A stretch of 64,000 nucleotides of DNA from Rikenellaceae bacterium (lineage in GTDB: Bacteria; Bacteroidota; Bacteroidia; Bacteroidales; UBA932), in NCBI GenBank assembly GCA_022777205.1, contig JALFGP010000027.1, forward strand, positions 30,333 through 94,332. Direction: 5' to 3'. Position numbers and translations under genes: made by a program. Shown here in pieces: positions 39,604-50,919 of the stretch (position 1 is its first letter; every line of letters begins with the position of its first letter). A model generated the notes under the pieces. That model was not told the origin of the DNA. It saw only the letters and a program-made list of their open reading frames with translations, and ran no database searches.

Positions 39604-39675
39604 GCCTCCGTAGTTTAATGGATAGAATTTCAGATTCCGGTTCTGACGGTTGCGGTTCGATTCCGCACGGGGGTA
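39604..39675 (+). tRNA. tRNA-Arg(CCG)
   Basis: A 72-base cloverleaf folds by eye: acceptor GCCTCCG/CGGGGGT (with G-U pairs), D arm GTTT/GAAT, anticodon stem TCAGA/TCTGA around TTCCGGT (anticodon CCG), a 4-base variable loop, T arm TGCGG-TTCGATT-CCGCA, and discriminator A. CCA is not encoded. It reads CGG arginine codons. Confidence 0.93.
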
Positions 39676-39698
39676 CAAATTTGGTACAAATTTGTACC
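39672..39698. repeat. Tandem 11-bp repeat and 16-bp palindrome starting inside the tRNA-Arg 3' end
   Basis: GGTACAAATTT occurs twice back to back (39672-39682, 39683-39693); the first copy begins within the last bases of the tRNA. The second copy opens the perfect palindrome GGTACAAATTTGTACC (39683-39698). Duplicated tRNA 3' ends are typical of integrase attachment sites, but no integrase gene is present in the window. Confidence 0.55.
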
Positions 39699-39716
39699 CA
39701 ATTTATCCAACCCCCA

Positions 39717-39793
39717 GTCACTTCGTGACAGCCCCTGAGGGGCGCGGGGAAAGGATTCCCCGAAACCCCTTCGGTCGCTACGCTCCTGGTAGC
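39717..39793. repeat. Run of four short perfect hairpins downstream of tRNA-Arg
   Basis: Four consecutive small stem-loops: GTCAC/GTGAC (39717-39729), GCCCC/GGGGC (39731-39743), CGGGGAA/TTCCCCG (39745-39762) and GCTAC/GTAGC (39777-39793). The stretch is GC-rich against AT-rich flanks. One of them may terminate the tRNA transcript; the cluster may also be a remnant of a mobile element. Confidence 0.5.
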
Positions 39794-39812
39794 TAAAAAA
39801 TCAAGAAAAAAC

Positions 39813-39843
39813 TTTGCAATTGGAAATATCTTTTATACTTTTG
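39813..39843 (+). promoter_or_regulatory. Consensus promoter of the ilv-leu operon
   Basis: TTTG (39813-39816), a 19-base spacer, then TACTTTTG (39836-39843): an exact TTTG-N19-TAnnTTTG Bacteroidota promoter. Transcription would start near 39850, about 47 bases before the leader-peptide ATG. Confidence 0.8.
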
Positions 39844-39896
39844 CAATCGCATTTGCAGCGGAGCACATTCCGCAAAAACTAAAAAAATAGAGAATT

Positions 39897-39965
39897 ATGT
39901 TAGTAGTCGTGAACGTCATTAGCTTGCTAGTCCTTGTCATTAAGATAGTTGGACCGGGAAAGTGA
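39897..39965 (+). CDS. ilv-leu operon leader peptide, 22 aa
   Basis: ATG at 39897, TGA at 39963-39965. The product begins MLVVVNVISLLVLVIKIVGP; 14 of its 22 residues are Leu, Val or Ile, the three end products of the operon behind it. This is the expected signature of a ribosome-mediated attenuation leader: shortage of charged Leu, Val or Ile tRNA stalls the ribosome within it. The last codons (CCGGGAA at 39954-39960) can base-pair with TTCCCGG (40001-40007) in the following hairpin. It lies between the consensus promoter and ilvD and is too short for the ORF track. Confidence 0.85.
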   Translation: MLVVVNVISLLVLVIKIVGPGK

Positions 39966-40026
39966 TGGCATCACGTGTGATAAAGCATACTGGAGCGCTC
40001 TTCCCGGAAAATCGGAAAGAGCGCTT
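39954..40026 (+). promoter_or_regulatory. Transcription attenuator of the ilv-leu operon
   Basis: Two mutually exclusive pairings are visible. The terminator-like hairpin AGCGCTCTT (39994-40002) / AAGAGCGCT (40017-40025), with an inner CCG/CGG, is followed by the T-rich TTCGATATTATT. The alternative pairs CCGGGAA (39954-39960), at the end of the leader ORF, with TTCCCGG (40001-40007), the inner 5' side of that hairpin. A small hairpin GTGAT/ATCAC (39962-39974) spans the leader stop codon. A ribosome finishing the leader covers the first segment and lets the terminator form; stalling upstream frees it. Confidence 0.72.
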
Positions 40027-40059
40027 CGATATTATTAGAAGTAACAATTTGAAAGGACT

Positions 40060-41892
40060 ATGAAACACGAACTCAGAAGTGCAGTGACCCAAAACGGCAG
40101 ACGAATGGCCGGAGCCAGAGCCCTGTGGATGGCAGCAGGAATGAAGAAGGAACAGATGGGACGACCGGTAATTGCCGTAGTGAATTCTTTCACCCAGTTT
40201 GTTCCGGGTCACACTCATCTTCACGAAATTGGCCAGATAGTCAAGGCGGAAATTGAAGCCCAGGGATGTTTTGCAGCTGAGTTCAATACCATCGCAGTTG
40301 ACGATGGAATCGCAATGGGCCACGACGGAATGCTCTATTCCCTGCCTTCCAGAGACATCATAGCCGATTCGGTGGAATATATGGTCAATGCCCACAAGGC
40401 AGACGCGATGATTTGCATAAGCAATTGTGACAAAATCACTCCGGGAATGTTGATTGCTGCAATGAGGCTCAATATCCCTGCGGTTTTCGTGTCGGGAGGC
40501 CCTATGGAGGCAGGAGTTATGGGCTCGCAGAGACTCGACCTGATTGATGCAATGGTGAAGTCCGCAGACCCTTCCGTAAGCGACGAAGATGTTGCTGAAA
40601 TTGAAAATTCCGCATGCCCGGGTTGCGGCTGCTGTTCCGGAATGTTCACGGCCAATTCAATGAACTGTCTCACGGAAGCCATAGGCCTTTCACTCCCTGG
40701 TAACGGCACTGTTGTCGCCACCCATAGCCGGAGAATAGAACTCTTCCGCAAGGCCGCCCGTCTGGTAGTCAGCAACGCATACAAATACTACAGGGATGGG
40801 GATGAGTCCGTGCTGCCACGTTCGATAGCCACCCGCGGAGCTTTCCTCAATGCAATGGCCCTGGACATAGCTATGGGCGGTTCTACCAATACCGTGCTTC
40901 ATCTCCTTGCAGTTGCAAATGAGGCCGGAGCGGACTTCAAGATGTCGGATATAGATGCACTTTCCCGCAGGGTGCCTTGCCTGTGCAAGGTGGCCCCCAA
41001 CACCAACAAATATCACGTTCAGGATGTGAACAGGGCAGGCGGGATTGTCACCATTATGAACGAACTTGCAAAAGGCGGTCTCGTGGACACTTCCCTCAAG
41101 AGAGTGGACGGAATGACACTGGCGGAGGAGATTGACGCATATTGTATTGATAGTCCTAATGTTACGGAGGAGGCTAAGGGAATTTACGCAAGTGCCCCGG
41201 CCAACCGTTTCAGCACCCGGATGGGCTCGCAGGACAATGATTATGAAACTTTCGATACGGACCGCAGCAATGGTTGCATCAGAGACCTTGCCCACGCCTA
41301 CACCACAGACGGAGGCCTCGGAGTGCTTTTCGGCAACATAGCAAAGGACGGCTGCGTAATCAAGACCGCCGGAGTGGACAAGTCCATCTGGAAATTCTCC
41401 GGCCCTGCTAAAGTCTTTGATTCTCAGGAGGCTGCCTGTGAAGGGATTTTGGGCGGAAAAGTCAAGGCAGGGGATGTCGTGGTCATTAGTTACGAAGGTC
41501 CTAAGGGAGGCCCTGGAATGCAGGAAATGCTTTATCCGACCTCCTATATCAAGTCAATGCATCTGGGAAAGGAATGTGCCCTGATAACTGACGGCCGTTT
41601 CAGCGGGGGTACCTCAGGACTCAGCATAGGACATATTTCCCCGGAAGCGGCAGCGGGTGGCAACATAGCCCTGGTACGCGATGGGGACATCATAGAGATA
41701 GACATACCTGAAAGGAAAATCAATGTCCGGCTCAGCGATGAGGAGCTTCAACTCAGGCGTGAGGAGGAACTTTCGCGCGGAAAAATGGCATTCACACCTT
41801 GGGCGCGCAAAAGGGAGGTCTCAAAGAGTCTCAAAGCCTATGCTGCAATGGTCAGCTCTGCGGACAAGGGTGCAGTCAGGATTATCGAATAA
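40060..41892 (+). CDS. ilvD: Dihydroxy-acid dehydratase
   Basis: A 610-residue Fe-S enzyme that dehydrates 2,3-dihydroxy-3-methylbutanoate (and the methylpentanoate analogue) to the 2-keto acid precursors of valine and isoleucine. Motifs: [12 protein letters not shown] with the cluster cysteine, [20 protein letters not shown], and [20 protein letters not shown] near the C-terminus. Length is as expected for IlvD. It is the first structural gene behind the attenuator, 94 bases after the leader stop. Confidence 0.97.
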
Positions 41893-41944
41893 CAATCTGA
41901 ATACCCGATATTACTGTAAACACGGAGGAACAAAACTGAAAGAT

Positions 41945-43669
41945 ATGGAAACAGACCAGACACATAACCGGCTTACCGGAGCCGAAATTCTACTGCAATC
42001 TCTTGTGGAGGAAGGCGTTGACACCGTTTTCGGTTATCCGGGAGGTCAGGTAATGGCCTTGTATGATAAACTTTTAAACTATTCCGACAGGCTTAGGCAT
42101 ATACTTGTCCGCCACGAGCAGGGAGCCATACACGCGGCCCAGGGCTATGCAAGGGTGAAGAATACCCCCGGAGTTGTCTTCGTTACCTCCGGTCCAGGCG
42201 CGACCAACATCATCACGGGTGTGGCCGACGCAATGTCCGATTCTACTCCGGTGGTGGTGATTACGGGCCAGGTGCCCTCCAGTTCTCTCGGAACGGACGC
42301 ATTTCAGGAGGCCGACATCATAGGTCTCACTACTCCTATTTCCAAATGGAATTATCAGATCAGGCGTGCCGAAGACGTGGCCTGGGCAGTGGCAAGGGCA
42401 TTCTACATTGCCGGTACAGGCCGTCCGGGACCGGTGGTGCTGGACTTTACCAAGGATGCGCAGACTGGATTTGCCGAGTTCAATTATTCCAAGTGCGATT
42501 TCATCCGTAGCTATGTACCTGAGGCTGAGGCTTGTGAGGCTGAGCTTGACGAGGCTGCAAGAATGATAGACCAGTCCTCCAGGCCTTTCGTGGTCTTCGG
42601 TCAGGGCATATTGATGAGCGGGGCAGAACAGGCTCTTATGGATTTTCTCAAGAAAGGGGATATACCGGCAGGTTCCACTCTTCTCGGACTGAGCGCCCTG
42701 CCTTCCGGATTCAGCCATTTCGAGGGTATGCTCGGAATGCACGGCAATCTCGCTCCTAATGTCAAAACCAATGAATGTGACCTGCTCATTGCTGTGGGTA
42801 TGCGTTTCGACAACAGGGTGACCGGACCTGTCTCTACTTATGCCCGTCAGGCCAAAGTGATTCATATAGACATAGATGCATACGAAATAGGCAAGCTTGT
42901 GCCGGTGGACTTGGGCATTAATGCTGATGCGCGCAAAGTTCTCGAGGCCCTGACTGCCAAGATTTCCCGCGCTGACAGGCACGAGTGGAGGGAGAGTTTC
43001 AGACAGGTTAGAAAAGTGGAAGATGAAAGGGTCATCCGTCCGGAACTTGAGCCGGAGACAGGCGACATAAGGATGGGCGAGGTTGTCGATATGGTTTCCC
43101 AAGTTACTGAAAACAAGGCTATTGTGGTCACGGATGTGGGTCAGAACCAGATGGTTGCAGCCAGATATTCCCGTTTCAATCAGACCCGCAGTTTCATTTC
43201 TTCCGGAGGATTGGGCACTATGGGATTCGGCCTTCCTGCAGCCATAGGCGCAAAAATCGCAGAGCCATCCAGACCGGTTTGCCTTTTCTGTGGAGACGGA
43301 GGCATTCAGATGACCATAGAGGAACTGGGAGTGGTGATGCAGGAAAATGTCGGAGTCAAAGTGGTCATACTCAACAACAACTGGCTCGGCAACGTGAGAC
43401 AGTGGCAGGAGATGTTCTTTGACCGCCGCTATTCCGCAACCAGGATGATGAATCCGGACTACACTCTGATTGCCCGGGCTTATGGCATTGACAGTGAGGT
43501 AGTTGAGTCCCGTGAGGAATTGAGGGGAGCCGTGCATAGACTTTTCGCTGACGAGCGCGCCCGCATTCTCATAGTTCACGTTGCGGAACAGGAAAACGTG
43601 ATGCCTATGATTCCGCCGGGCAAAGGGGTCAACGAGATAATGATTTCTGAAACTGAATGGTATAAATAA
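41945..43669 (+). CDS. ilvB: Acetolactate synthase, large (catalytic) subunit
   Basis: A 574-residue thiamine-diphosphate enzyme that condenses pyruvate with pyruvate or 2-ketobutyrate. The track start (41723) lies inside ilvD; the ATG at 41945 (METDQTHNRLTGAEILLQ) gives the normal length. Visible motifs: GYPGGQVMALYDKL, the activating Glu in LVRHEQGAIHAAQGYARV, and the ThDP/Mg2+ motif starting at CGDGGIQMTIEELG with NNNWLGNVRQWQ. It is 2 bases upstream of ilvN, with which it forms the holoenzyme. Confidence 0.96.
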   Translation: METDQTHNRLTGAEILLQSLVEEGVDTVFGYPGGQVMALYDKLLNYSDRLRHILVRHEQGAIHAAQGYARVKNTPGVVFVTSGPGATNIITGVADAMSDSTPVVVITGQVPSSSLGTDAFQEADIIGLTTPISKWNYQIRRAEDVAWAVARAFYIAGTGRPGPVVLDFTKDAQTGFAEFNYSKCDFIRSYVPEAEACEAELDEAARMIDQSSRPFVVFGQGILMSGAEQALMDFLKKGDIPAGSTLLGLSALPSGFSHFEGMLGMHGNLAPNVKTNECDLLIAVGMRFDNRVTGPVSTYARQAKVIHIDIDAYEIGKLVPVDLGINADARKVLEALTAKISRADRHEWRESFRQVRKVEDERVIRPELEPETGDIRMGEVVDMVSQVTENKAIVVTDVGQNQMVAARYSRFNQTRSFISSGGLGTMGFGLPAAIGAKIAEPSRPVCLFCGDGGIQMTIEELGVVMQENVGVKVVILNNNWLGNVRQWQEMFFDRRYSATRMMNPDYTLIARAYGIDSEVVESREELRGAVHRLFADERARILIVHVAEQENVMPMIPPGKGVNEIMISETEWYK

Positions 43670-43671
43670 TT

Positions 43672-44217
43672 ATGGACAATACAGTCAGAAGATATACGGT
43701 AGTTCTGCACTCCGAAAACCAGATCGGTGTGCTCAATCAGGTGGCCAACATATTCACCAGACATAGCCTGAATATGTCCAGTATGTCTGCAAACGCCTCT
43801 CCGCTGGAGGGAATTCACACGATTTCCATAGTTACATACACGGTGGAGAAGAAAATTATCGAGGTGGTGCAGCAGCTGGAGAAGAAGGTGGACATAGTGA
43901 GGGCCTTTTACTATTCCGACGAGCAGACCGTCTATAGGGAGCTTGCCCTGTACAAAGTGCCGACTGACAAGATTTTAGGCTCCGGCAACATAGAGGACAT
44001 ACTCCAGGGCTATTATGCAAAAATCATAGAAATCAACAGGGACTTCACGGTAATTTCCAAGGTCGGCACCACTGAGGAAACTCAGCAGCTCTACAACGAG
44101 CTCAGCCGTTTCGGGGTGATGCAGTTCCAGCGTTCCGGCCAGATTATGGTCTCCCGCGAGAAACAGGAGCCTCTGTACAAATATCTTGAAGAAAGAGAAA
44201 AAGTTAAATCCAAATAA
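43672..44217 (+). CDS. ilvN: Acetolactate synthase, small (regulatory) subunit
   Basis: A 181-residue regulatory subunit. The N-terminal ACT domain (YTVVLHSENQIGVLNQVANI, SMSANASPLEGIHTISIVTY) binds valine for feedback inhibition in this family; the C-terminal domain (residues about 85-175) includes QLYNELSRFGVMQFQRSGQI. It starts 2 bases after the ilvB stop codon. Confidence 0.95.
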   Translation: MDNTVRRYTVVLHSENQIGVLNQVANIFTRHSLNMSSMSANASPLEGIHTISIVTYTVEKKIIEVVQQLEKKVDIVRAFYYSDEQTVYRELALYKVPTDKILGSGNIEDILQGYYAKIIEINRDFTVISKVGTTEETQQLYNELSRFGVMQFQRSGQIMVSREKQEPLYKYLEEREKVKSK

Positions 44218-44229
44218 TTATTCAAAATT

Positions 44230-45273
44230 ATGGCAAAGATTAATTTTGGTGGTGTAGAAGAAAATGTCATCACTCGTGAAGAATTCACACTCGAACAGGC
44301 AAGGGAAACACTCAAAGGCGAGACCATCGCTGTCATCGGTTACGGCGTGCAGGGTCCGGGTCAGTCTTTGAACCTCAGGGACAATGGTTTCAACGTGATC
44401 GTGGGCCAGCGTCCGGGCAAAACCTACGACAAGGCAGTAGCTGACGGCTGGGTACCGGGCGAGACTCTTTTCGGCATTGAGGAAGCTTGCGAAAAGGGTA
44501 CCATCATTATGTGTCTGCTTTCAGATGCAGCAGTGATGTCCGTATGGCCACGCATCAAACCTTACCTCACTCCGGGCAAGGCTCTGTATTTCTCACACGG
44601 TTTCGCAATCACCTGGAGCGACCGCACAGGCTGTGTGCCTCCTGCTGACGTGGACGTGATTATGGTGGCTCCTAAGGGTTCAGGCACAACTGTGCGTTCA
44701 CTCTATCTCGAAGGCCGCGGAATCAATGCTTCTTTTGCTGTATATCAGGATGTTACAGGCCGTGCATACGAGCGTACCGTAGCCCTCGGCATAGGCATAG
44801 GTTCAGGATATCTTTTCGAGACCACCTTCCAGAGAGAGGCAGTTTCAGATCTCACAGGAGAGCGCGGATCTCTTATGGGTGCAATTCAGGGCCTGCTTCA
44901 GGCACAGTACGAAGTTCTCCGCGAGCACGGTCACACTCCGAGCGAGGCCTTCAATGAGACAGTTGAGGAACTTACCCAGTCTCTTATGCCGCTGTTTGCC
45001 CAGAAGGGTATGGACTGGATGTATGCAAACTGCTCAACTACAGCCCAGAGGGGTGCCCTTGACTGGTATCCTCGTTTCCACGATGCCATCAAGCCTGTAG
45101 TGGAGCAGCTCTACGAGAGCGTACAGAATGGAACAGAGGCTCAGATTTCCATTGATTCCAACTCCAAGCCTGACTATCGCGAGGGTCTTGAGAAGGAGCT
45201 CAAAGTCCTCAGGGACAGCGAGATGTGGAAGACTGCCGAAACTGTCCGCACCCTCCGTCCGGAGAATAAGTAA
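44230..45273 (+). CDS. ilvC: Ketol-acid reductoisomerase
   Basis: A 347-residue class I enzyme that isomerises and reduces acetolactate or acetohydroxybutyrate. The Rossmann motif is [20 protein letters not shown], followed by the cofactor loop [13 protein letters not shown]. The active-site region includes [14 protein letters not shown] and [20 protein letters not shown] with the Mg-binding acidic residues. Bacteroidales enzymes share this GPGQ-type loop. Located between ilvN and leuA, 12 and 11 bases apart. Confidence 0.96.
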
Positions 45274-45284
45274 TCTCCTGCATT

Positions 45285-46787
45285 ATGGACAAGAATCGAG
45301 TCTATTTCTTTGACACAACCCTGAGGGACGGGGAGCAGGTGCCGGGATGTCAGCTGAATACGGTTGAGAAAATCCAGGTGGCCAAGGCTCTCGAGTCCCT
45401 CGGAGTCGATGTTATCGAGGCGGGTTTTCCGGTGTCCAGTCCGGGGGATTTCAATTCCGTCATCGAGATTTCCAAGGCTGTGACCTGGCCTTCGGTCTGC
45501 GCCCTCACCAGAGCTGTGCAGAAGGATATCGATGTGGCTGTGGATGCCCTCAAATATGCAAAGCGCAAGAGAATCCACACCGGAATAGGCACTTCCGACT
45601 CGCATATCAGATACAAGTTCAACTCCAACCGTGAGGAAATCCTGGAGAGGGCTGTGAAGGCTGTGAAATATGCCAGGAATTTTGTGGACGAGGTGGAATT
45701 CTATGCCGAGGATGCTGGAAGGACCGAGAATGAGTATCTTGCAAGGGTAATTGAAGCTGTGATTGCCGCAGGTGCGACCGTAGTCAACATACCTGACACA
45801 ACGGGCTATTGTCTGCCTGCAGAATATGGGGCAAAAATCAAGTACCTGTGTGACAATGTGCCCAATATCGAAAACGCCATCATCTCAACCCACTGCCACA
45901 ACGACCTCGGAATGGCAACCGCCAATACTATGGCCGGACTCCTGAACGGAGCGCGCCAGTGTGAGGTGACCATCAACGGAGTGGGCGAGAGGGCCGGCAA
46001 CACCTCCCTTGAGGAAATAGCGATGATCATCAAGTCCCACAACGACATAGACCTGCAGTCCAATATCAACACCACGAGGATTTATCCTGTGAGCCGTATG
46101 GTTTCCAACTTGATGAATATGCCGGTGCAGCCCAACAAGGCCATAGTGGGACGCAATGCCTTTGCCCATTCCTCCGGCATACATCAGGACGGCGTGCTCA
46201 AGAATGTCTCCACCTATGAAATCATAGATCCGAAAGACATAGGTCTGGACACCAATTCCATAGTCCTCACTGCCCGCAGCGGCCACGCGGCACTGAAATA
46301 CCGTCTGGAGTCTCTCGGAGTCAAGCTCAGCGAGGAAAAGCTGGACAAGGTATATCAGGAGTTCCTCAAACTTGCGGACAAGAAAAAGGAAGTCTGCGAT
46401 GATGACATACTTATGCTTGCAGGTGCGGACCGCAGTCACGAGCAGGTCATCAAGGTGGACTGGCTGCAGGCCACCAGCGGCATAGGAATGAAACCCGTGG
46501 CATCCATAGGAGTGGATATAGCCGGGGAGAAATTCGAGGCGGCCGCAACTGGAAACGGCCCTGTGGATGCTTCCATCAATGCCCTCAGGCAAATCGTCAA
46601 ACGCAAAATCAACATCAACGAATTCACAATCCAGGGTGTCACCAAGGGTTCCGACGACTCCTGCAAGGTGCATATGCAGGTGGAGCACGAAGGGCGGATT
46701 TATTACGGCTTCGGGTCCAACACGGACATAGTCACAGCTTCGGTGGAGGCCTATGTGGACTGTGTGAACAAAATCCACAGCGTCTGA
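45285..46787 (+). CDS. leuA: 2-isopropylmalate synthase
   Basis: A 500-residue enzyme that commits 2-ketoisovalerate and acetyl-CoA to leucine synthesis. The barrel opens with [20 protein letters not shown] and carries the metal-binding [20 protein letters not shown] and the [13 protein letters not shown] loop. From about residue 385 the C-terminal regulatory domain ([31 protein letters not shown]) that senses leucine is present, so it is the feedback-regulated type rather than a short homologue. Confidence 0.95.
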
Positions 46788-46788
46788 G

Positions 46789-48183
46789 ATGAATACCCTA
46801 TTCGACAAAATCTGGGACTCCCATATTGTGGACCGCATAGAGGACGGCCCTCAGCAGATCTATATCGACAGACTCTACTGCCACGAAGTGACCTCACCAC
46901 AGGCTTTCGAAGGCCTGCGTGCAAGGGGCATCAAGTGTTTCCGTCCGGAGCGCATCTTCTGTATGCCGGACCACAACACCCCCACCCACGACCAGGACAA
47001 ACCGGTTCAGGATCCGGTGTCGAGGAAACAGCTGGAGACTTTGGATGCAAATGTCAGGGAATTCGGACTGACATATTTCGGGATGATGGATCCGCGCAAC
47101 GGCATAATCCACGTGGTGGGGCCGGAGCAGGGACTGTCTCTTCCCGGTATGACCATAGTCTGCGGAGACTCGCATACATCCACCCACGGAGCTGTGGGCG
47201 CAATCGCCTTCGGAATCGGAACCAGCGAGGTGGAGATGGTGATGGCCTCCCAATGCATACTCCAGTCCAAGCCCAAATCTATGAGAATCAAAGTGGAGGG
47301 CAAATTGGGCAAGGGCGTGACTGCCAAGGATTTGGCTCTTTACATAATGAAGCAGATCAGCACTTCGGGTGCCACAGGTTATTTCGTGGAATATGCCGGA
47401 AGTGCAGTCCGGAGCCTGACTATGGAAGGCCGTCTTACCCTCTGCAACCTTTCCATAGAAATGGGGGCGAGGGGAGGATTCGTGGCACCGGACGAAACCA
47501 CTTTCGCCTACCTCAAGGGCCGCCCGTATTCACCGAAAGGGGAGGATTGGGACAAGGCTGTGGAATATTGGAAGACCTTGCGCAGCGATGATGATGCTGT
47601 GTTTGACAAGGAGATTGTTTTTGATGCAGCCGACATCGAGCCTATGATAACCTACGGCACAAATCCGGGAATGGGAGTTGAGGTGTCGGGCAAAGTGCCT
47701 GCACTTGAATCCATACCGGAGCAGGGGCGTGAATCCTTCTTCAAGTCGCTGGATTATATGGGTTTTCATCCTGGGGATGCTATGATTGGCAAGAAAGTGG
47801 ACTATGTCTTCCTCGGGGCTTGCACCAATGGCAGGATTGAGGATTTCAGGGCATTTGCCTCCATTGCTCAGGGGCGTCACAAGGCCGAAAATGTCATTGC
47901 CTGGCTGGTTCCGGGGTCCTGGGCAGTTATGGAGCAAATCAAGGACGAGGGTCTGGACAAGGTGCTGGAAGCTGCAGGTTTTGAAATCCGTCAGCCGGGT
48001 TGTTCGGCCTGTCTGGCTATGAATGACGACAAGGTGCCTGCAGGAAAATACTGTGTCTCAACCAGCAACCGTAATTTCGAAGGCCGTCAGGGACCTGGGG
48101 CAAGAACCCTTCTCGCCAGCCCTCTCACTGCAGCGGCTGCAGCCGTAACCGGTTGTGTCACAGATCCAAGAGATTTACTATGA
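46789..48183 (+). CDS. leuC: 3-isopropylmalate dehydratase, large subunit
   Basis: A 464-residue aconitase-family subunit that holds the [4Fe-4S] cluster. Motifs: [20 protein letters not shown], the cluster cysteines in [14 protein letters not shown] and in [19 protein letters not shown], and [20 protein letters not shown]. It starts 1 base after leuA's stop and shares ATGA with leuD. Confidence 0.96.
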
Positions 48184-48794
48184 AACAGAAATTCAATATT
48201 ATCGAAAGCACCTGCGTGCCTCTGAAGGTGGAGAATGTGGACACGGACCAGATCATCCCGGCCCGCTTTCTCAAGGCGACCACAAAGGACGAAAAATATT
48301 TTGGCGATATGCTGTTCAGGGACTGGAGATTCGATGCTGAAGACAAACCCAAACCGGAATTTGTTCTCAACCGTCCGGAGTTTTCTGCCTTTCCTGCGGA
48401 GGGAGTGCATCAGATTCTTGTGGCAGGCAAGAATTTCGGCAACGGCTCCAGCCGTGAACACGCTGCCTGGGCCTTGGCCGGATATGGATTCAGGGTGGTG
48501 ATTTCCAGCTTTTTCGCCGACATCCACAAGAATAACGAACTGAACAATTTCGTGCTTCCTGTAGTGGTGCCCGAAGATTTTCTTCAGGAACTTTTCGATA
48601 CCATTGAAGCTGACAGCGAGGCTAAAGTGAGGGTGGATGTGCCGTCCCAGAGAGTCACCAATCTCACCACCGGACACAGTTTCAGCTTCGAACTGAATGC
48701 GTACAAGAAGTATTGTCTGATGAATGCCCTTGATGACATTGACTATCTTCTTGAAAATCAGGATAAAATAATTGCATACGAGAATAAGAAATGA
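48180..48794 (+). CDS. leuD: 3-isopropylmalate dehydratase, small subunit
   Basis: A 204-residue swivel-domain partner of LeuC. The start is the ATG at 48180, overlapping the leuC stop (ATGA); the track start at 48153 lies inside leuC. Signature segments: [40 protein letters not shown] and [20 protein letters not shown]. It overlaps leuB by 4 bases. Confidence 0.96.
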
Positions 48795-49873
48795 AACTTC
48801 GAATAGCAAGGCTTCCGGGTGACGGAATAGGACCCGAAGTGGTGGAACAGGCCGTAAAGGCCGTGGATGCTGTTTGCGCAAGCTTCGGACACGAGGCTGA
48901 ATATGCTCACGGCTTTGTAGGGGCCTGTGCCATAGACAGATATGGAGATCCGTTTCCGGATGAGACTTTCCGCCTGTGTATGGATTCCGATGCTGTGCTT
49001 TTCGGCGCAGTGGGGGATCCGAAATATGACAATGATCCCACAGCCAAAGTGCGTCCCGAACAGGGATTGCTTGCAATGCGCAAGAAACTGGGCCTCTATG
49101 CCAATCTGCGTCCGGTCGAGACTTTCAAGTCTCTGGTGCACAAATCTCCCCTTAAGGAGCATCTTGTGGACGGAGCTGACTTCCTGTGTGTCAGGGAATT
49201 GACCGGAGGAATGTATTTCGGGGAAAAGGGCCGCAGGGATGATGGCAACACTGCCTACGACACCAATCTCTATCACCGCTATGAAATCGAAAGAATCCTC
49301 AGACTCTCCTATGATTACGCTAGGCGCAGACGCAAACACCTGACCGTGGTGGACAAGGCAAACGTGCTGGAGTCTTCCCGTCTCTGGAGGCAGATTGCTC
49401 AGGAAATGGCCCCGCAGTATCCGGATGTGACCACCGACTATATGTATGTGGACAATGCCGCTATGAAACTCGTTACGGGACCGAAGTTCTTCGATGTGAT
49501 GGTGACTGAAAACACCTTCGGAGACATACTCACGGATGAGGCAAGCTGCATTTCCGGTTCTATGGGTCTGCTGGCATCGGCATCGGTGGGGGAACATACC
49601 TCAGTTTTCGAACCCATTCACGGCTCTTATCCCCAGGCGGCAGGCAAGGACATAGCCAATCCGGTGGCTACCATACTTTCGGCTGCAATGATGTTCGAAT
49701 ATGCTTTCGGACTTATGGACGAGGGGAAGGCCATCAGGGATGCTGTGGCAGCTTCGCTTGAAGCCGGAGTGGTCACAGAAGACCTTGCAGACGGAGGTCC
49801 TGTATATGGCACTGCTGCTGTGGGAGACTGGATTGCATCATATATTTCGAAAAATTATAAATCAATCAAATAG
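48791..49873 (+). CDS. leuB: 3-isopropylmalate dehydrogenase
   Basis: A 360-residue NAD+-dependent decarboxylating dehydrogenase of leucine synthesis. Motifs: [20 protein letters not shown], the substrate-binding [30 protein letters not shown], and the NAD-binding [20 protein letters not shown], then [18 protein letters not shown]. The start overlaps leuD (ATGA), pointing to translational coupling. Confidence 0.96.
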
Positions 49874-49875
49874 TT

Positions 49876-50919
49876 ATGGCAAATATCGATTGGGGCAAAC
49901 TTGGTTTTGATGCCTATAGGACCAAGACCCTTGTATTGGCAAGATGGACAAAAGGCAAATGGTCTGAAATTACAGAATCTGATGAGTTCCAGTTCGTGCT
50001 GGACCCTTTCACCTGTGTCTTCCACTATTCCTTCGCCTGCTTTGAGGGTTTGAAGGCTTTCACCCAGAAGGACGGTAAGGTGGTGTTGTTCAGACCTTTC
50101 GAGAATGCACACAGAATGCAGCGTACTGCAAGGTTTCTCGGGCTGCCGGAACCTTCTGACGATATGTTCATTGAGATGTGCGAGAGGGCTGTGAAGGCCA
50201 ATCGTGAATTCCTGCCTCCTTATGGCCACGATGCTTCACTCTATGTGCGTCCTTTGCTTATGGGTGTGCAGCCTAAGATGCAGCTTACACCTCCGAATGA
50301 TGTGCTCTTTGCAGTGATGGTGGCTCCTGCGGGAAGCTATTACGGAGCGAATATGAAATCCTTCTCCGCAGTCATTCCGCTCAACTACGACCGTGCAGCA
50401 CCAAAGGGCTCCGGAAGCTACAAGGTTGCAGCGAACTATGCCGCCACTTTCAGGCCTTACCAGATTGCGCACGACCAGGGACATATGGAACTGCTCTATC
50501 TGAATGCCAGCACCCACGAATATATCGACGAGTTCGGTTCATCCAACTTCTTCGGTATCAAGAACAATACTTATGTCACTCCGCTTTCTGACAGCGTGCT
50601 GCCTTCCATCACCAACAAGTGTCTGCAGGAGATTGCCGTTGACCTCGGACTTAAGGTGGAGAAGAGACCGGTTCGTCTTGAGGAACTTGAGGAGTTCGAG
50701 GAGGTGGGAGGCTGCGGCACTGCAGTGGTCATCAATCCTATGTCTCATATAGTGGTCAAGGAAGTGCTTGAGGAAGAACCTGTCAAGAAGGTTTACCGCT
50801 TCTGCCCTGACGGCGAGGTGGGACCTGTCAGCACTAAACTCTACAAAACCATCACAGGTATTCAGAAAGGTGAAATAGAGGACATCCACGGCTGGTGCCA
50901 CGAAATCAAAAATTTCTGA
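49876..50919 (+). CDS. ilvE: Branched-chain amino-acid aminotransferase
   Basis: A 347-residue PLP enzyme of fold type IV that makes Val, Leu and Ile from their keto acids with glutamate. It has the class II BCAT layout: FHYSFACFEGLKAFTQKDGK, LYVRPLLMGVQPKM, the catalytic Lys region PKGSGSYKVAANYAATF, and EFGSSNFFGIKNN. It closes the operon, 2 bases after leuB, and a GCCCGG/CCGGGC hairpin (50925-50941) follows. Confidence 0.95.
   Translation: MANIDWGKLGFDAYRTKTLVLARWTKGKWSEITESDEFQFVLDPFTCVFHYSFACFEGLKAFTQKDGKVVLFRPFENAHRMQRTARFLGLPEPSDDMFIEMCERAVKANREFLPPYGHDASLYVRPLLMGVQPKMQLTPPNDVLFAVMVAPAGSYYGANMKSFSAVIPLNYDRAAPKGSGSYKVAANYAATFRPYQIAHDQGHMELLYLNASTHEYIDEFGSSNFFGIKNNTYVTPLSDSVLPSITNKCLQEIAVDLGLKVEKRPVRLEELEEFEEVGGCGTAVVINPMSHIVVKEVLEEEPVKKVYRFCPDGEVGPVSTKLYKTITGIQKGEIEDIHGWCHEIKNF

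Follow-up and report, generated by a model that had tools for sequence, protein, structure and literature searches.

A candidate leader-peptide attenuator of the ilv-leu operon that recurs across Bacteroidales

Organization of the ilv-leu locus

We analyzed a 64,000-nt stretch of a Rikenellaceae genome (the window), in which a nine-gene operon, ilvD-ilvB-ilvN-ilvC-leuA-leuC-leuD-leuB-ilvE, spans positions 40060–50919 of the forward strand. Its first gene, ilvD, encodes dihydroxy-acid dehydratase (40060–41892; NCBIfam NF009103/TIGR00110). It is followed by ilvB for the acetolactate synthase large subunit (41945–43669, start codon uncertain; TIGR00118) and by an ilvN/ilvH-like gene for the small subunit (43672–44217), which matches NF008864 below its curated cut-off. 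The next genes are ilvC for ketol-acid reductoisomerase (44230–45273; TIGR00465), leuA for 2-isopropylmalate synthase (45285–46787; TIGR00973), leuC and leuD for the large and small subunits of 3-isopropylmalate dehydratase (46789–48183, TIGR00170, and 48180–48794, TIGR00171), leuB for 3-isopropylmalate dehydrogenase (48791–49873; TIGR00169), and ilvE for a branched-chain aminotransferase (49876–50919; TIGR01123). All nine genes lie on the forward strand, directly after the leader described below.

The leader begins with a promoter of the Bacteroidota type, TTTG-N19-TAnnTTTG (39813–39843), which was assigned by sequence match. Its −33 element TTTG (39813–39816) and its −7 element TAnnTTTG (TACTTTTG, 39836–39843) are both exact and are separated by 19 nt. 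Downstream of the promoter, a 22-codon ORF (MLVVVNVISLLVLVIKIVGPGK) starts with ATG at 39897 and extends to 39965 including the stop codon. The peptide is strongly hydrophobic, with Leu, Val or Ile at 14 of its 22 positions; as the operon encodes enzymes of the branched-chain pathway, these residues match the pathway products. The promoter is preceded by a tRNA-Arg (CCG) gene (39604–39676) and, between this gene and the promoter, by a dispersed repeat (39694–39800), five more partial copies of which are present in the genome with 74–92% identity, some of them near contig ends.

A terminator-like hairpin (segments 3:4) with a 14-bp stem and a 6-nt loop follows the ORF at 39992–40027. Its core strands are AGCGCTCTT at 39994 and AAGAGCGCT at 40017, to which the closing pairs are added in the full stem, and its arms match perfectly over 9 bp. 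The predicted stability of −22.2 kcal/mol is among the strongest of the 74 leaders compared in this study. A degenerate U-tract, GATATTATTAG, lies directly downstream at 40028–40038. The sequence TTCCCGG at 40001, inside the hairpin, is complementary to CCGGGAA at 39954, in the last codons of the leader ORF. With a one-base bulge, this alternative pairing reaches 11 bp and −17.0 kcal/mol, and it joins the antiterminator strand at the end of the ORF (segment 2, GGACCGGGAAAGTG, 39951–39964) to segment 3 (CGCTCTTCCCGG, 39996–40007), which is common to the terminator and the antiterminator. In the window, the leader ORF also folds against segment 2 (−16.0 kcal/mol), forming a candidate 1:2 protector or pause hairpin. 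The leader as a whole folds better than each of 200 dinucleotide shuffles (z = −4.9). The promoter, the Leu/Val/Ile-rich ORF, the hairpin and the alternative pairing had all been proposed in a first-pass annotation of this DNA, and each was recovered at the positions given here.

Leader ORFs upstream of ilvD in related bacteria

The region 5' of ilvD was taken from 206 loci, in 190 of which the ilvD start could be located. A match was defined as an ATG-started short ORF scoring 6 or more for Leu/Val/Ile runs, and 20 dinucleotide shuffles per locus served as the control. Such an ORF is present in 80 of the 190 relatives, compared with 1.1% of the shuffled regions; about half of the 190 upstream regions yielded none. 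The matches include records named Bacteroides, Phocaeicola, Tannerella, Alistipes, Odoribacter, Prolixibacteraceae and Marinifilum, together with many from the window's own genus, indicating that the ORF type is kept across many Bacteroidales families. The distance from the leader ORF to ilvD is mostly 140–200 nt and reaches approximately 340 nt in some relatives. The peptides themselves diverge widely between genera (e.g., MITSTSINLSLLDIISVVVVPSRA and MKALNNISILVLLVVVVIFKK), and only their Leu/Val/Ile content and position are kept. The −7 element of the promoter is also recurrent: 66 of 72 relatives (9.5% of shuffles) carry TAnnTTTG within 160 nt 5' of the leader ATG, at a median distance of 29 nt from the ATG.

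Elsewhere in the phylum, among orders and classes whose ilvD is divergent, the leader search was mostly negative, with one clear match (L191) and one match with a TTG start (L190). The L191 locus, which belongs to the same class and another order, carries the leader ORF MFANIIVVVVVILCTQTV 142 nt 5' of ilvD. This occurrence outside Bacteroidales suggests a wider range of the leader type within the class. In probable Chlorobia with a divergent ilvD (L111–L139), Val/Ile-rich ORFs, sometimes with a non-ATG start, end approximately 110–120 nt 5' of ilvD and may represent a different attenuator design. The ilvD gene is absent from many members of the window's genus, some of whose genomes are incomplete.

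Competing RNA structures

The hairpin and its tail were scored together in 74 non-redundant Bacteroidota leaders, 70 of which lie above the 99th percentile of the shuffled controls. A T run of at least 4 directly follows the hairpin in 64 of the 74. The window is weak in this respect. Its tail, GATATTATT, has five T in nine nucleotides, which is among the five weakest of the 74 (median, 7), whereas the sister locus L082, with an ilvD 87% identical to that of the window, has the tail TTTTTTTAT. The sequence GATATTATTAG is not a U-run, and a strict terminator scan found no site at the window hairpin. Therefore, the efficiency of termination in the window genome is doubtful. The first-pass annotation had described the attenuator as complete, a description that holds for the family and only in part for the window copy.

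For each of the 74 leaders, we computed the duplex energy between the ORF end and the 5' arm of the terminator, with swapped partners as the control. Leader ends pair with their own terminator arms at a mean of −15.9 kcal/mol, compared with −11.0 kcal/mol for swapped partners, and no permutation out of 10,000 gave a mean as favorable as that observed, a count that differs from a strict probability because the loci are related to each other. The arms are of unrelated sequence types (CCTTTCTCAC, CCCTTCTCAGTC, CGCTTGCCTGCGG, CTTGCTTAATGG and GTTGGATTTCACC), and each type pairs with its own leader end. Since own-partner pairing is seen in several unrelated arm types, the leader end and the terminator arm coevolve. 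Among 34 distinct anchored pairs, standard pairs make up 80% of the anchored columns in register and 41–54% when the strands are slid by 1–3. The core GRGAA/TTCYC is near-invariant through the choice of anchor and contributes no evidence of covariation; at the flanking pairs, both sides are exchanged (e.g., G-C 13, C-G 7, A-T 2 and T-A 1). Both the conserved ORF and the compensatory changes by which the first-pass annotation had proposed to check its attenuator reading were thus found in the relatives, and that reading is supported by them.

We also modeled the folding with the ribosome represented by a simple footprint, the size of which was assumed from E. coli. For the window, the model predicts antiterminator pairing of 0.77–0.80 with the A site on codons 2–15 and of 0.03–0.07 from codon 20 to the stop codon. 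In 72 of the 74 loci, moving the ribosome from the Leu/Val/Ile codons to the stop codon lowers the predicted pairing. At equilibrium, the window terminator beats the antiterminator at every ribosome position (0.90–0.91), implying that the modeled switch would have to be kinetic, i.e., operate during transcription. In the same model, the antiterminator of L082 wins at equilibrium with the ribosome on codons 2–15.

Proposed mechanism and its alternatives

A Leu/Val/Ile-rich ORF and a switchable hairpin 5' of ilv-leu genes indicate that ribosome stalling can probably turn these genes on. We propose that the element very probably attenuates transcription of the ilvD-to-ilvE operon through a ribosome-mediated (leader-peptide) mechanism, for which we infer ribosome stalling, termination and the response to amino acids from the leader sequence and the folding model. 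Transcription would start just 3' of the TTTG/TAnnTTTG promoter, and a ribosome would translate the Leu/Val/Ile-rich leader. A shortage of charged Leu-, Val- or Ile-tRNA would stall the ribosome within approximately codons 2–15. The end of the ORF (39951–39964) would then be left bare and could pair with the 5' arm of the hairpin (39996–40007) before the 3' arm is made; with segments 2:3 paired, no terminator would form and the operon would be transcribed. When charged tRNA is plentiful, the ribosome would reach the stop codon and cover 39951–39964, allowing the hairpin at 39992–40027 to form and transcription to end near 40026–40038.

The weak tail of the window bears on two other readings. 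The same attenuator may be present with a terminator that has decayed or become leaky in this genome, leaving the operon largely unregulated at the attenuation step. The poor T content, the contrasting tail of L082 and the negative result of the strict scan all favor such decay, but this genome has retained the ORF and the antiterminator as well as a highly stable hairpin whose arms match perfectly over 9 bp, and we regard this explanation as unlikely, albeit one to be reckoned with. Instead of being an intrinsic terminator, the hairpin could cooperate with Rho or serve in pausing or processing, with leader translation still in control. In favor of such a role, Rho-assisted attenuation occurs in other leader-peptide systems and no U-run is present in the window. 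Against it, 64 of 74 relatives have a canonical U-run of four or more in the corresponding position, and we consider this role distinctly improbable.

Two further readings would dispense with attenuation by a leader peptide. The strong hydrophobicity of the peptide would suit a functional micropeptide beside which the RNA structures are incidental, but its sequence is not kept between genera beyond Leu/Val/Ile content and position, and pairing with the downstream hairpin constrains the end of the ORF, making this explanation very improbable. A riboswitch or T-box that senses a metabolite or tRNA directly would be compatible with a structured 5' UTR containing a terminator and an antiterminator. 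However, the window matches no T-box or riboswitch model in Rfam, and the antiterminator strand sits at the end of a conserved ORF, so that direct sensing appears the least probable of the explanations considered. Ribosome-mediated attenuation remains our preferred reading of the locus.

Leaders at other amino-acid operons

A scan of the same kind in relatives revealed leaders with His runs 5' of hisG and leaders with Trp runs at trp operons. In most Bacteroidales relatives (L207–L228; e.g., MRFYSRHRVHHHHHHLSG in L219), hisG is preceded by short ORFs that contain 3–6 His codons in succession and are themselves followed by terminator-like hairpins, and none was found at hisG of the window's own genome (L218). 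Leader ORFs with WW or WWW are located 5' of trp operons in relatives (L231–L243). In the window's genus, WW/WWW ORFs lie approximately 1.4 kb 5' of the trpE match, and trpE is therefore probably not the first gene. The trp leader of L236, from a relative of the window's genus, matches the Rfam family Bacteroid-trp (RF01692) and provides an independent positive control. A search for trpE in the window's genome gave no family match; together with the absence of ilvD from many congeners, some with incomplete genomes, this suggests patchy amino-acid auxotrophy. For Thr leaders 5' of thrA-type genes, 12 loci were scanned and none was convincing.

Discussion

The predicted mechanism is classical ribosome-mediated attenuation, which is known in Bacteroidota for trp and whose putative ilv-leu version recurs across Bacteroidales and is absent from Rfam. 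None of the Rfam leader families (Leu_leader, His_leader, Trp_leader, Thr_leader and Bacteroid-trp) matches the window, in which only tRNAs reach the gathering score; up to E = 10, the search returned no leader family and only noise such as microRNA models. Annotation misses the element because its leader ORFs are too short for gene calling and Rfam has no family for it. On balance, we lean toward the view that leader-peptide attenuation is the ancestral and default control of branched-chain synthesis across Bacteroidales, and probably beyond, and that it constitutes an uncatalogued RNA family. If so, transcription-translation coupling would work in a phylum mostly without Shine-Dalgarno-led initiation. 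The widespread Bacteroidales set, with ilv leaders described here and his and trp leaders in relatives, would allow a direct test of ribosome-RNA polymerase coupling in the phylum. In gut Bacteroidales, control of ilv-leu would affect the branched-chain amino acid output of abundant bacteria, and the literature found names no regulator for this control.

Our literature search, which had most subscription journals outside its coverage, found no paper on the Bacteroidales ilv leader. A comparative attenuator paper by Vitreschak et al. (2004, FEMS) reportedly mentions Bacteroidetes/Chlorobi. A 2010 survey stated that leader-peptide systems were known only in Proteobacteria and Actinobacteria before its own addition of Firmicutes (PMC2965389). 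Bacteroid-trp is listed in PMC2864571, short ORFs reminiscent of leader peptides are mentioned for B. thetaiotaomicron (PMC7366714), and a transcriptome and 5' UTR mapping study of F. psychrophilum gives strong clues for leader-peptide attenuation at amino-acid operons (PMC9723704). The remark in the first-pass annotation that this arrangement is far less documented in Bacteroidota is therefore fair, though not absolute given RF01692 and the F. psychrophilum study.

The putative attenuator resembles the enteric systems of E. coli (ilvGMEDA/ilvL, leuABCD/leuL, trp and his) in having a short ORF enriched in the amino acids that its pathway makes, a putative terminator 5' of the first gene, and an antiterminator that excludes this terminator. 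It differs from them in its Bacteroidota promoter, its lack of similarity to the Rfam leader models, and an antiterminator strand that overlaps the last codons and the stop codon of the leader. Bacteroid-trp RNA (RF01692, PMC2864571) belongs to the same phylum and has the same design with Trp codons, whereas the window has different amino acids, a different operon and a different sequence, which the Bacteroid-trp model does not match. The attenuation proposed for Flavobacterium psychrophilum (PMC9723704) also lies 5' of amino-acid biosynthesis operons in the same phylum; it concerns another lineage, and the main text of that study names no ilv leader. Branched-chain leader peptides control ilv operons in Corynebacterium glutamicum (the ilvBNC attenuator, PMC11857589) and in Staphylococcus aureus (a leucine-rich attenuator peptide, PMC5794164). 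Those systems belong to other phyla and are experimentally supported.
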